From Arabidopsis thaliana (taxonomy: Eukaryota; Streptophyta; Magnoliopsida; Brassicales; Brassicaceae): a DNA stretch of 64,000 nucleotides. Below, piece after piece: positions 4,202 to 37,609 of the stretch. Within the stretch, counting starts at the first letter, position 1. Each line of letters begins with the position of its first letter. The notes under the pieces were generated by a model. That model saw only the letters and a list, made by a program, of their open reading frames with translations, searched no databases and had not been told where the DNA came from. The stretch spans positions 2,356,101-2,420,100 of the forward strand of contig NC_003074.8 in NCBI RefSeq assembly GCF_000001735.4. Direction: 5' to 3'. The translations under genes and the position numbers were made by a program.

Positions 4202-5053
4202 ATCTACGGCACCCCAGAAAACCAAGTCTTTATCCTTTCCAACACTCCTCTGTAACTTGTGCGACGGCGCGTCCCGGTGCGTTTCAGAAGAGAAGTAGCC
4301 GCGAAATTTCTCGATGAAAGGAGAGAGAAAAGTAAGCAAAAGGGAATTTTAAATGAATCGGTTATCGAAAGAGATTAGTCTCTTTACCGGGTCAGCTCGA
4401 TGAGACTTGGATCATAATCCGGATCTTATAGTCATTCTTTTTGTTTACTACCATAAACCGGTCATTGGGTTAATTGTAAATTATTTATACAACTAGGATT
4501 AAACCCGCGGTTTCCCGTCGCGCGAAGGCTTTTATAAATTTTTTATTAAATAAATTAGTGTGTGTTATATTAAAAAATAGTAACATATATTTAGTTTTTT
4601 TAAAACTGGTATAAATAATGATTGGAATCTTTTATTAGTATGGAGACTATTTACTGATTAGAATCATGTATTTTATTGTGTTTAAAGTTGTGTATCAATT
4701 ACTAAATGTGTATTTGATATAAGTAAAATGGTGACAAAAATATAATATAATGATAGATGGTGTAATTATTTTGTTGATTATAAGATCTTTAAAAACCAAA
4801 GTTGGTATGTTTTATCTTTTATTTTTGGCAAAACAAAGATAATAACATTTATGAGGAGACCTTTTTTCTAAATCATACAGAATATTTATACTAAAGAGTA
4901 TTTTGAAGCTGTATTAATGATCCCATTACCCAAATTATATGATACAATAAAAGAATATACCCCCAAAAGAAAACAATGCAAAGTAAATCATCTTAACACC
5001 TAATTCTTCTTTCTAAAGATTGATTAGATTCACTATTCATGTTTTTCATCTCT
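4202..5053. other. CHIP promoter side and AT-rich interval
   Basis: The first 200 bases are the CHIP leader and promoter (minus strand). From 4493 a CTAG followed by a GC-rich hairpin-like patch and very AT-rich DNA suggests a Helitron end (see separate entry). No coding potential seen. Confidence 0.5.
4493..4560 (-). mobile_element. Possible Helitron 3' terminus (ATREP-like)
   Basis: Read on the minus strand, a GC-rich patch able to fold (CGCGCGACGGGAAACCGCGG) is followed about 9 bases later by CTAG and then T. This is the usual Arabidopsis Helitron 3' end: hairpin, then CTAG, inserted before T. The DNA inward to about 4980 is AT-rich, as expected of non-autonomous ATREP elements, but I cannot place the 5' TC end. 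The hairpin is imperfect. Confidence 0.42.
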
Positions 5054-28736: not shown

Positions 28737-29517
28737 CTAAACAGTGTTTCTTCCAAGAGTTTGATCTACTTGATACAATGGCAACATCGAAGACTGAACC
28801 TGCAAGAACCATTGAAACACACATTAATTCACTTTGCCATTATATCACTGAATCAAATCTCAACCAAATCAAGAAAGCAATTATACAACTAGGCACATAC
28901 ATTTTGAGTTAGTCCTTCAATAATTAAAGCAATTGCAACACTTAATCCTTCAGCTAATTCCATAAACTTAAAAGGTACTCAGTTCTACAAATCCATACAA
29001 CAGCTCAAACTTTGTGAACAATTCAAAAACAGAAAATTTCTCATACCTTGTTTTCACCAATAAACTCGGCATCGCCACGAACCGCGACACAATCTCTTGG
29101 TGTCTCGAACAAAGACAAAGAGTATTGCTTGCGAAGAACACCAACGTCGAAGAATATAAGACCAGAGCTAGGCACGTCGACTCGGATTCCTTTCACCTGT
29201 AACCACAAGAACAGCTCTTGCGCTGAGATTCCCGATAAATCCCTGATTTGAGCATAACCTATCGTTCCCGAAACAATCTCATCGTAATGCAGCTCTGTCT
29301 CATACTTAGCCTGGCATGACTGATTCAAATAAACCGAGAACCGTCCCGTTTCGCCATTAACGGTAAATCCTTTCACGCCTTTAGGAAATAGCCCCAAAGG
29401 TAATCCATTCGCTAGAAGGATCTCGTCTATAGATTCATTCTCGGCGATCACGGCGGAGATCGAGATCCCGGCGGCGAGAACGAAACAAAGAAGCGTGATT
29501 TGAACTATACGAAGCAT
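28737..29517 (-). CDS. DUF538 secreted protein, copy 1
   Basis: Two exons, 29047-29517 and 28737-28799, giving 177 residues. A signal peptide (LRIVQITLLCFVLAAGIS) is followed by the DUF538 domain: ILLANGLPLGLFPKGVKGFT, then VYLNQSC, YDEIVSGTIGYAQI, LSGISAQELFLWL, VDVPSSGLIFFDVG and SLSLFETPRDC. Exon 2 adds VQSSMLPLYQVDQTLGRNTV. The family is plant-only with a beta-rich (BPI-like) fold and unclear role; some members are stress-induced or wall-associated. An alternative acceptor could enter another frame, giving a longer isoform. It is the tandem paralogue of the gene at 31191. Confidence 0.92.
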
Positions 29518-29837
29518 AGTGGAATGGTTTAATTTGCCAGATCTTATTGCTGGCTATGAAGAAATTGAATTAATGGGTTTAAGCGAGGAAGAAGAAGAAG
29601 ACGACATTTTTATGACAGCTTGAAACAGAGTGGAACAAAATTATTGAAGGCGGAATTTGGAATGAGAGCAGTGATCCTCTGTTTCTCAGGCCATGGTGAG
29701 AGTAACCAATGAATGAAAGCCACGTCTGATTATATCCACCAATAAATTTGTATTTATTTAAATGGTTTCGTTACTATAAGCCATGTTCTAACATTTAACG
29801 AGTTATTGGAAAAGTAGGTGGACCGGACCACATGGGA

Positions 29838-31190: not shown

Positions 31191-32243
31191 CTAAATGATG
31201 TTTCTCCCAAGATTTTGATCTACTCGGTACAATGGCAACTCAACCTGCAAGAAGACCCATTGAGCACACATTAGCTTATTTTCCATTACATGATTGAATC
31301 TGATCAATGCAAAACTTTCAAAACCATCTTTCCTAGTTCGAAAGATATTCCCAATTTCACAAGTCTAACAGTTCTTCACCGATAAAAAAATCTCAACCAA
31401 TTCAAGAATGGAGAACATAACCCTAAAAAGGAACAATCTTTCCTAGCTCTAAAGATAATTCTTCATGTCACATGTCTAACAGTTCCTGACCAATCAAAAA
31501 TCGCAACCAAGTCAAGAATGGAGAAAAAATGACCATTGAAAGGAATCTCAAAAGTTTCAGATGATGACGAATGAGATAAGCTAAAAAAACTTTGAAAAAG
31601 GATTCTCATTTGAATTCTTAGTGGCAAGCCTGAAACTTGTGAATATTCAAAAGCTCGACATTGAAAAACCACAAAATCCAGCGATAAGAACATTTGAATT
31701 ATCTCTATTCACACTATAGCCCATTAGTATCCTTCAATAATTTTCAAGAACTTTAAAGGTTCAATTGAAAAAACTCATTCTGCATACCTTGTGAATCCCA
31801 CGAACCGGAACGCAATCTCTCGGAGTCTCGAACAAAGACAAAGAATATTGCTTTCGAACAACACCAACGTCGAAGTATATAAGACCAGAACTCGGCACGT
31901 CGACTCGGATTCCTTTAACCGGAAACCACAAGAATAGCTCTTGCGCCGAGATTCCAGACAAATCAGAGATTTGAGCAGAACCTATAGTCCCCGTAATATT
32001 GGCGTCGTAATGTATCTCAGTCTCGTATTTAGCCTCGCATGCCTGATTCAAATAAACCGAGAATCGTCCCGTTTCGACGTCGAAGGTGAATTCTCTGACA
32101 CCTTTCGGGAATATCCCCGAAGGTAATCCGTTTGCCAGGAGGATCTCGTATATAGTCTCAGTCTCTGATATCGCCGTGGAGATCGAGATCCCGGCGACGA
32201 GAACGAGACATAGAAACGCGATTTGAACAATACGAAGCATCAT
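31191..32243 (-). CDS. DUF538 secreted protein, copy 2
   Basis: Two exons, 31788-32243 and 31191-31244, giving 169 residues; the ATG at 32240 is one codon further in. Signal peptide (LRIVQIAFLCLVLVAGIS), then the same DUF538 blocks as copy 1 (ILLANGLPSGIFPKGVREFT, VYLNQAC, LSGISAQELFLWFPVKGIRV, GLIYFDVG, SLFETPRDC). Exon 2 encodes VELPLYRVDQNLGRNII. The intron is 543 bases against 247 in copy 1. Both copies keep an open frame, so both are probably functional. Confidence 0.92.
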
Positions 32244-32925
32244 CGGCTTATTCTTCCCGAATTCACGGTTTGTGATTTTGACAGATCTCTCTCTGCTCGT
32301 TTATCAGGAAATTGAATTAATGGGTTTAAGGGAAGACGAAGAAGGAGAAGAAGAAGAAGACGACATTCTGGTGACAGCTTGAAACAGAGTGGATCAAAAT
32401 TTTATCAAATTATTGAAGGCGGAATTTGGAATGGAGCAGTAATCTTGTGCTTCTCATTCCATAGATGGAACAGACCAATGAACGATAGCCACGTCGGATG
32501 TGTGTCCACCAAGCAGTATTTAGTTAAATGTGGCTTGTTTCGTTAAGCCTTTGGTTCTAACTTCCTAAATTTCTTACGCGTTATTGGAAAAAGTAGGTGG
32601 ACCGTATCACATGGGAACAGAGTGGATCTGGCCGGACTTGCGGCTATTCGAATGTTTATAGATTTTTTTCTGTCTTAAATGCCTCATAAAATACATAGAA
32701 GCAATGTTTTCTTCAACCCAAACTAAACCAAACAAAATATTTGGATTAATATTGACCGGTTCGATTGAACGGTCCAGTTAGAAATTTGGGCTTGTAAGTA
32801 TGTAACTTATCTTTGGGCTTATAAAGAAGCCCATCTCCAAATTAGCGTTTCACCCTCACTCACTTTTCCGGTTTCAACCATTAGCACAAAAAATCTGAGC
32901 TCCGACCAAAAATTGGGGAACGACG
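32244..32925. other. Divergent promoter region
   Basis: Left part is the duplicated DUF538 promoter ending near 32640; right part is the leader of the ferredoxin-like gene. Nothing else seen. Confidence 0.6.
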
Positions 32926-35088: not shown

Positions 35089-35550
35089 ATGGATCAAGCG
35101 GAGCTTGCCAGGATCTTCCAAATGTTCGACAGGAACGGTGATGGCAAAATCACGAAGCAAGAGCTGAATGATTCATTGGAGAATCTAGGAATCTACATTC
35201 CAGACAAAGACTTGGTGCAGATGATCGAGAAGATTGATCTCAACGGTGATGGGTACGTGGACATCGAAGAGTTTGGAGGGTTGTACCAGACGATAATGGA
35301 GGAAAGAGACGAGGAGGAAGACATGAGAGAGGCTTTCAACGTGTTTGATCAGAACCGGGACGGGTTCATCACGGTGGAAGAGCTAAGGTCTGTGTTAGCT
35401 TCCTTGGGGCTCAAACAAGGAAGAACCCTAGAGGATTGCAAGAGGATGATAAGCAAAGTTGACGTTGATGGAGATGGCATGGTGAATTTCAAAGAGTTTA
35501 AACAAATGATGAAAGGTGGTGGATTTGCCGCCTTAGGATCAAACTTGTAA
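35089..35550 (+). CDS. CML3: Calmodulin-like protein 3, peroxisomal, four EF-hands
   Basis: Intronless, 153 residues from the ATG at 35089; an upstream in-frame ATG at 35035 lies close to the TATA box and would add a non-conserved leader. Four EF-hand loops start at Asp14 ([12 protein letters not shown]), Asp50 ([12 protein letters not shown]), Asp87 ([12 protein letters not shown]) and Asp125 ([12 protein letters not shown]), each with acidic position 12, so all four should bind calcium. The C-terminus is SNL, a plant-type PTS1 peroxisome signal. From memory, CML3 dimerises the peroxisomal processing protease DEG15. The locus has also been labelled AGD11, but there is no ARF-GAP domain. Confidence 0.95.
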
Positions 35551-36286
35551 AAAAAAAACTCATTTTTCGGGTTCGGGTTTGAGACCCAAAATCATTGGGT
35601 ATTTTTTTCTTCGGAATGATTATTAGGGCAAAACCTTGAAAGCGATGATGAATGGATTTGCAAAAGAAAAAAGCTCAACAAACTTTGTGAGCTTTGTTTT
35701 GAATGCTCCTACAAAAATGTTGTTGATGAATTTGCTTTTCGGATTTTGAAACATAACCATGCGAATCTACGGGAACACTTGATGATTCTTTTATTATTTA
35801 TATATTTGGGTGTTGCACTTAAAAAGTTATCACTATCTAGCTTATAATCATAAAATGATGAAAATATATTTGTATTTGTAAATTACAAAGATTAAACACA
35901 AACAAACAATCGAATTTCTACCCAAAAAAACAAACAAACAATCGAATTTATGTCTTTAAAGTGAAGATTTAGGTCAAAGTAATGGAAAAAAGTGTCTCAT
36001 GGAATATGTTAGTCAGGCGGTCAAAGTAAAAAGTAAAAAGAGAAAAAACTATAAACTACATGATGTTTAACTCTTCAAGTGACGTCAAGACATAAACTAC
36101 GTGCCGTTTCGCACTATTCGTAATCCAACGGGCGAGACTGGAATGAATTTATGACCAGATCTTGGTTTTTTCTTGTCGTCTTCTTCACCGCTTACCAGTT
36201 ACTAACTTGAGCTTCAGAGATCATCATCATCATCACTTCCTCTCTCTGAAGAAAACACAATTTGGAGTTTTCTAATCTTCATTCCA
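35551..36286. other. CML3 3' UTR and FRS promoter/leader
   Basis: AT-rich; a small direct repeat (CAAACAATCGAATTT, twice near 35905-35948) and the FRS 5' leader, with a CATCAT run near 36220-36234, at the right end. Confidence 0.6.
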
Positions 36287-37609
36287 AGTGAGTACTTCAA
36301 TCGAATCCCTTTTCTACTATTCAATAATTCAATCTATTATTCAAATTCTCGTCTATCTGTTTCGATGATTTTGAGGTTTTCGCTCCCTTTTGTTATCAAA
36401 TTATGGAATCTGATTCCCAATTTCGCGTTTGTATGTACTCGATTTTCTCTTTTTTCTTGCATGATTACACTTTGGTGAAGTTCAGAATTCGAGTAATATC
36501 ACTTGAAATTGCTACTCTCTGCCTATTCATTAGGGTTTATGAATACATAGTTTAGGGTTTATGTTTCCATTAGTCACTTCTTGAGGACCTGCTTATCTTC
36601 GAGCCATTGTGTATTTGATAAACTTTGGAAGAAGTGTCCACTATATCTAGCGTAGGACTGAATGTAGTAGATTAGAACTGCTAAGAGTTGGTTAGAGAAA
36701 GGGGTGGGTAATTTATAAGGATTTTCTAGGGTTTGGTTAGGTATTCGGTAGAGAGTTTCTGGTTTGGTGAACAAGACATAGCTTTGCATCATTTGTTTTG
36801 AGTTGAGATGTTTGTGTGTTGTGTTGTGGCAGTGGAAGGGAACTCTTTACCCGAAGAAGATGTAGAGATGATGGAGAATTCAGATGTAATGAAGACAGTC
36901 ACAGATGAAGCTTCTCCAATGGTGGAGCCGTTCATTGGTATGGAGTTTGAATCAGAAGAGGCTGCAAAGTCTTTCTATGACAATTACGCTACATGCATGG
37001 GTTTCGTTATGCGAGTGGATGCTTTCAGGAGGTCAATGCGAGATGGGACTGTGGTGTGGCGCAGACTCGTGTGTAATAAAGAAGGATTTCGTAGGTCGAG
37101 ACCTCGGAGAAGCGAGAGTAGAAAGCCTCGGGCTATAACAAGAGAAGGGTGTAAAGCTCTGATTGTTGTGAAAAGAGAGAAATCCGGAACATGGCTTGTT
37201 ACTAAATTTGAGAAAGAGCATAATCATCCTCTCTTGCCTCTCTCCCCTAATGTTCGCCGGAATTTTCAGCTCCCTCAAACACCGGTACGTCTACGCACTT
37301 TTCCTTGGGGTAAAAGTAAAACAGTGATTATTGGCATTGATCTAAGAGTTACCAAGAACATAAAGCTCAAAAAATGATATCGAAATCTTGTACAAATGAA
37401 CTTTTCAGGACGAGAAAGACGCAAAGATTAGGGAGCTGAGTGCAGAGCTGAGCCGAGAGAGAAGGCGTTGTACTGCTTTGCAACAGCAGCTTGATATGGT
37501 CCTTAAGGAGATGGAAGAACATTCCAACCATCTCACCATTAACATCAATAGTGTTATCCAAAGTGTTAGAGACATTGAGTCCAATACTTTCACCAAACAA
37601 CAAACATAA
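36287..37609 (+). CDS. Short FAR1-related (FRS/FRF-type) DNA-binding protein
   Basis: Best model: exons 36287 (single coding base A), 36833-37284 and 37409-37609. The donor at 36288 and acceptor ending 36832 join A to TG, making ATG-GAA-GGG in frame with the rest; 217 residues result. Without that junction, the next in-frame ATG is at 36868 (205 residues). The protein has one FAR1 DNA-binding zinc-finger domain (about residues 30-135: EAAKSFYDNYATCMGFVMRV, RRLVCNKEGFR, REGCKALIVVKRE, TWLVTKFEKEHNHPL), the WRKY-GCM1-like fold derived from Mutator-like transposases. A C-terminal coiled coil rich in Leu/Arg/Gln follows. The transposase core and SWIM domains of full FRS proteins are absent, so it resembles FRF competitor factors. 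Confidence 0.88.

Follow-up and report, generated by a model that had tools for sequence, protein, structure and literature searches.

A predicted start codon split by an intron in a short FAR1-domain gene of Arabidopsis thaliana and in two of its paralogues

A gene for a short, transcription-factor-like protein with a FAR1 domain, located in a 64,000-nucleotide stretch of the Arabidopsis thaliana genome (NC_003074.8, positions 2,356,101 to 2,420,100; hereafter the window), appears to have a leader intron lying inside its start codon. The A at 36287 and the TG at 36833-36834 flank a 545-base GT-AG intron, and splicing would bring them together as an ATG that opens a protein of 217 aa. The same A/TGGA split, the slash marking the junction, is found in two of the three paralogues of the gene in the same genome. 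Both the sequence and these two paralogues give the split start codon good support, and the junction is presumably used in RNA. Taken as a whole, we read the arrangement with good confidence as an ordinary inherited leader intron inside a start codon, which would be constitutively spliced and followed by translation from the split AUG.

The gene and its predicted split start codon

The gene model joins A36287 to 36833-37284 and 37409-37609 on the plus strand, giving 217 aa and a stop codon. The product has a single Pfam domain above cut-off, FAR1 (PF03101), at residues 47-136 (E 1.6e-33; 115.7 bits against a cut-off of 28.1), and no transposase or SWIM family appears among the eight Pfam matches listed at E up to 1. 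The gene is probably At3g07500, which encodes an FRS-RELATED FACTOR (FRF). As a short FAR1-only protein, with no core transposase or SWIM domain, its predicted product fits the FRF subgroup (subgroup 6) of the FRS-FRF family. In the excerpted text of PMC6000157, FRFs are described as short proteins with the FAR1 DNA-binding domain only, and four are counted for Arabidopsis. The window protein is alike in this respect, and the number of short FAR1-only loci found here is also four; the four loci called FRF below are presumably the same four genes.

The features of the window referred to in the text are as follows.

35089..35550, plus strand: adjacent calmodulin-like EF-hand gene
36152..36287, plus strand: ATG-free stretch ending in exon 1 of the leader; the nearest upstream ATG in any frame is at 36151
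36287..36287, plus strand: first base (A) of the predicted split start codon, from sequence geometry and the coding sequence model
36288..36832, plus strand: predicted first intron, 545 bases, GTGAGT...GGCAG, after base 1 of the start codon
36808..36810, plus strand: in-frame ATG inside the first intron, open into the coding sequence if the intron is retained
36833..37284, plus strand: exon 2, with the TG of the predicted start codon, the N-terminal region and the FAR1 domain
36860..36865, plus strand: out-of-frame ATG-TAG minimal open reading frame, between the split start and codon 13
36868..36873, plus strand: contiguous in-frame ATGATG, codons 13-14, a possible downstream start
37285..37408, plus strand: second intron, phase 0, from its phase and the verified coding sequence
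37409..37609, plus strand: exon 3, with the C-terminal region and the stop codon, from the verified coding sequence

Exon 1 ends at A36287 with CATTCCAA, which is followed directly by the donor GTGAGT; the intron ends in GTGTTGTGGCAG and exon 2 begins at 36833 with TGGAAGGGAAC, so that the spliced context at the start codon would be ATTCCAATGGAAGGG. The preliminary description had placed an A/TG junction at 36287/36833 across 545 bases, had put the resulting ATG in frame with the whole protein and had read codon 1 of the unspliced DNA as GTG. All of these coordinates are exact at the level of sequence, the frame is open through exons 2 and 3 to 217 aa and takes in FAR1, and the unspliced DNA at codon 1 (36832-36834) is indeed GTG. 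In the upstream DNA an in-frame TAA lies 28 codons 5' of the junction, and no ATG in this frame separates the two; in a spliced leader reaching back to 36151 the split ATG would be the first AUG. Two ATGs, at 36143 and 36151, lie 5' of this leader and would open short upstream frames if transcription begins before them.

The splice sites themselves were compared with neighbouring candidates by simple home-made scores, which were not trained. The window acceptor ranks first of 49 AGs, and first of 72 in a wider stretch. The window donor has the most matches to CAG/GTAAGT (seven of nine) and is the single best donor by this count in the wider stretch, yet it is sixth of 46 by U1 duplex energy.

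How much weight a junction of this kind can bear depends on how often it would arise by accident. At the base frequencies of the window (A before GTRAG in 55/191 cases, and TG after a T-rich [TG]CAG in 17/168), an in-frame A/TG is expected at about 1% of random junctions. A single A/TG is therefore weak evidence; indeed, single cases must occur, since Arabidopsis has 4,240 5'UTR introns according to the excerpted text of PMC1482700. It could accordingly be proposed that the junction in the window is a product of chance, the gene having its true first exon or acceptor at some other place; an exon beginning at 36803, at the acceptor ranked second (after TTTTGAG), would for example take in the ATG at 36808. 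Against this stands the identical geometry of three paralogous genes, and we regard a chance junction as very improbable. The weight of the evidence lies in the recurrence of the split in two paralogues and not in the single junction of the window.

Recurrence among FAR1 loci

A search of the genome (119.66 Mb in seven contigs) gave 24 FAR1 matches, from which 18 loci were examined; two of the remaining matches are second domains of included genes and four, being weak or partial, were excluded. Among the 18 loci, three have an in-frame CAG/TGGA with a matching ...A/GT donor upstream: the window gene and the two FRF genes listed here, one on C2 and the other, C3b, on the same contig as the window gene.

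C3:21980528/21980132, minus strand: C3b FRF gene with predicted split start, 395-base intron, protein beginning MDFRIDNG, 263 aa
C2:17989739/17990138, plus strand: C2 FRF gene with predicted split start, 398-base intron, protein beginning MEDEDDPT, 206 aa

All three thus have a GT-AG intron between bases 1 and 2 of an ATG. In the three genes in-frame stops are found 28, 5 and 17 codons 5' of the junction, and the intervening DNA holds no ATG in that frame; when all frames are counted, the closest ATG begins 136, 509 and 179 bases 5' of the junction. In all three models the second intron is in phase 0.

In the narrower search the acceptor is top-scoring in all three genes, that of C2 being tied with one other AG, and no donor in any of the three has more consensus matches than the one proposed, with some ties. 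By U1 duplex energy the donors of the two paralogues rank 2/21 and 6/28. In the wider stretch the C3b acceptor remains first of 62 and the C2 acceptor is third of 48 (a 1-kb stretch), while the donors of both genes tie with other sites on match count. The 1-kb stretch at C2 contains four donors, its own included, with at least six of nine consensus matches, and one of the others also has A at -1.

Fourteen of the 18 loci have a contiguous in-frame ATG 5' of the domain. These comprise the FRF gene on C4 and 13 FRS-like loci, the latter scored simply for the presence of such an ATG, which need not be the true start; the one remaining locus, L021, has a broken frame and neither feature. Two of the three split genes, window and C3b, also carry contiguous in-frame ATGs further downstream. 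The C2 gene has its first contiguous in-frame ATG at codon -1 of the Pfam match, after a conserved EPxxGxxFES segment. Because no other in-frame ATG precedes this segment and the domain, a C2 protein resembling its relatives must begin either at the split ATG or in an unseen upstream exon, and the split ATG is the sole start candidate found in this gene. The C4 gene (L012, G000:C4:7537137 region) begins MMTGDLKLDEP and has neither the longer N-terminal region nor the split start; its second intron, at 657 bases in the model, is longer than those of the other FRFs.

Some in-frame AG/TG is present 5' of the domain in four of the 13 FRS-like loci, where the acceptors rank low (24/64, 15/70, 33/62 and 11/66), and a split start in those four is conceivable from the sequence. 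The best of them is L024 (G000:C4:8613000-8616000), in which an in-frame TTAG/TG lies nine codons before the contiguous ATG (MDLQENL) and a possible A/GTAAGA donor is found 731 bases upstream, making it a weak split-start candidate.

No retrocopy of the spliced form was found in the genome: the DNA of exon 2 matches only itself, and the spliced junction pattern is absent with up to three mismatches allowed. Pattern matches sought as relatives in viral contigs (128) and in prokaryote genomes (67) yielded none that could be confirmed.

Intron retention and the choice of start

By the first-AUG rule, a spliced message should initiate at its first AUG, and it is for this reason that the spliced message is expected to start at the split ATG. 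Constitutive splicing of an ordinary kind, the most likely case, would create this AUG at the junction and translation would proceed from MEGNSLPEED.

A different view is that the contiguous ATGATG of codons 13-14 is the main site of initiation, in which case the intron would be a plain 5'UTR intron and the A/TG minor or incidental. Position -3 is C at the split ATG (context ATTCCAATGG) but A at the ATG of 36871, which also has G at +4. The two ATGs of the ATGATG lie, in the window gene and C3b alike, exactly 36 and 39 bases downstream of the split A (36868-36873; L010 reverse complement 4404-4412). Initiation at codon 13 would nevertheless have to pass over the first AUG of the leader as well as the out-of-frame ATG-TAG at 36860, and the C2 paralogue has the split but no such downstream ATG. 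We therefore consider a main start at codon 13 unlikely, and the split AUG the probable main start. The tandem ATGs shared by the window gene and C3b, which were spotted post hoc, may represent a common second start or a coincidence.

It had also been proposed that retention of the intron would remove the split ATG, so that splicing could gate translation or shift initiation 12 codons downstream. The removal stands. The simple shift does not, because the ATG at 36808 is in frame within the retained intron and open into the coding sequence: it gives MFVCCVVA-VEGNSLPEED..., with no stop before the coding sequence is reached. Seven other intronic ATGs precede it, the frames of which all stop before the coding sequence, and the ATG-TAG at 36860 in turn precedes 36868. 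The paralogues behave differently, in that no intronic ATG of C2 or C3b reaches the coding sequence in frame.

Could the split start nonetheless be a regulatory gate, with the start codon lost on retention and the protein switched off or altered, and has the arrangement been kept for that reason? The split persists in three FRF genes although precise intron loss would give a contiguous ATG. Retention in C2 would leave no in-frame ATG that reaches the coding sequence before the border of the FAR1 match, there being no later ATG before the domain either, and the logic of a gate fits C2 best; in C3b a TGA is present just upstream in the junction frame. On the other hand, intron positions persist through descent without any such role, and the C4 copy manages without the split. 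The standard set in this analysis for a gate was a retained form without any in-frame start 5' of the normal one, and the window gene has such a start at 36808. Since the outcome of retention differs between paralogues, a conserved switch is argued against, and we consider the gate quite unlikely. The broader proposal, that the FRF clade has kept a splicing-completed start through ancient duplications as a family-wide translation checkpoint, two of its members having codon 13 as a second start, is similarly hard to credit.

The intron has more plausibly been kept in the gene for ordinary first-intron reasons than as a switch. One such reason, compatible with the preferred reading of an inherited and constitutively spliced leader intron, is intron-mediated enhancement, with the position in the start codon being incidental. 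TTNGATYTG and CGATT are motifs of enhancing introns. The former is absent from all three first introns, and the latter exceeds its frequency in shuffled sequence in only one of them, C3b (8/1000 shuffles reach the count), and not in the window gene (442/1000) or C2 (353/1000). In favour of enhancement, the first introns (545, 398 and 395 bases) are longer than the second introns (124 bases at 37285-37408, 104 and 243), and Arabidopsis 5'UTR introns in general are long and near the ATG (excerpted text of PMC1482700). Enhancement is accordingly a possibility to be held tentatively.

Family history and comparison with other plant introns

The ancestral gene from which the FRFs of this genome descend probably already carried the intron, which would have passed to three of the four copies and been lost in the fourth. 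Each of the four FRFs has, no more than about 9 kb away, a gene from a single six-member calmodulin-like clade, the members of which are 70-75% identical to the window copy, the next best genomic match being 45%. The members near an FRF are the window copy at 35089..35550, C4:7538447, C2:17991311 and C3:21970570; two further members, C1:1818588 and C4:1442813, have no FAR1 match nearby. It is this shared neighbourhood that points to an inherited leader intron, lost once. The calmodulin-like gene of the window lies 5' of the FRF on the same strand, whereas at the other three loci (L010, L011 and L012) it is downstream and convergent; from this difference in order the window pair seems to have been rearranged. 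At C3b the calmodulin-like gene and the FRF flank a partial calmodulin-like match (G000:C3:21974762-21974914; residues 97-147, 61% identity), which is perhaps a decayed or multi-exon copy.

The FRF domains are pairwise 49.5-58.7% identical. In a tree of 15 FAR1 domains, from which three of the 18 loci (L015, L020 and L021) were left out, the C2 and C4 FRFs are grouped with support of 86/79 and the deeper branches are weakly resolved. FRF status requires three changes on this tree, and only 5% of 200 bootstrap trees unite the FRFs. As the C2 and C4 FRFs group together, the absence of a split start in C4 is read as a loss, and one ancestral split start with loss in C4 would be the simplest reading. 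Apart from the FRF and calmodulin-like genes, none of the reading frames of the window finds a counterpart (E 1e-6) in the 80-kb blocks surrounding C2 and C3b, so that this pair is all that links these loci to the window; the C2 and C3b blocks have one further gene family in common.

Introns that disrupt the start codon, in phase 1 or 2 of codon 1, are a known and rare class in plants (Nielsen and Wernersson 2006, PMC1626468). The FRF intron resembles that class in being a phase-1 intron in codon 1. It differs in that its position is common to three paralogous genes, and the excerpted text of PMC1626468 names no genes of the class. Arabidopsis 5'UTR introns are longer than coding introns and commoner than expected 1-40 bases before the start codon (excerpted text of PMC1482700); the FRF intron is likewise a long intron at the end of the leader, but lies inside the codon and not before it. 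In the plant BTL ubiquitin ligases, conserved 5'UTR introns are reported to be required for expression of two tested genes, and there too a leader intron has been kept across related plant genes, although in the excerpted text of PMC4225707 these introns are not described as lying inside the start codon, as the FRF intron does. The words "intron", "start codon" and "splic" do not occur in the main text of PMC6000157, where a split start in FRFs thus goes unmentioned, and phrase searches on split start codons found no published account of one in the literature searched here. The kind of intron is already known; its recurrence in a small gene clade is the part not found in print in that literature.

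If the shared split start is real in RNA, this rare type of intron seems to have survived several rounds of gene duplication, and the three genes would be natural tests of whether a start codon made by splicing controls translation. Gene models would be affected as well, since automated calls may settle on the split ATG for certain copies and on a downstream ATG for others.

Elsewhere in the window, the minus-strand frames at 29041-29553 and 31761-32300 encode similar, secreted-looking proteins (MLRIVQITLLCFVLAAG and MLRIVQIAFLCLVLVAG, respectively), which are perhaps the result of a local duplication.
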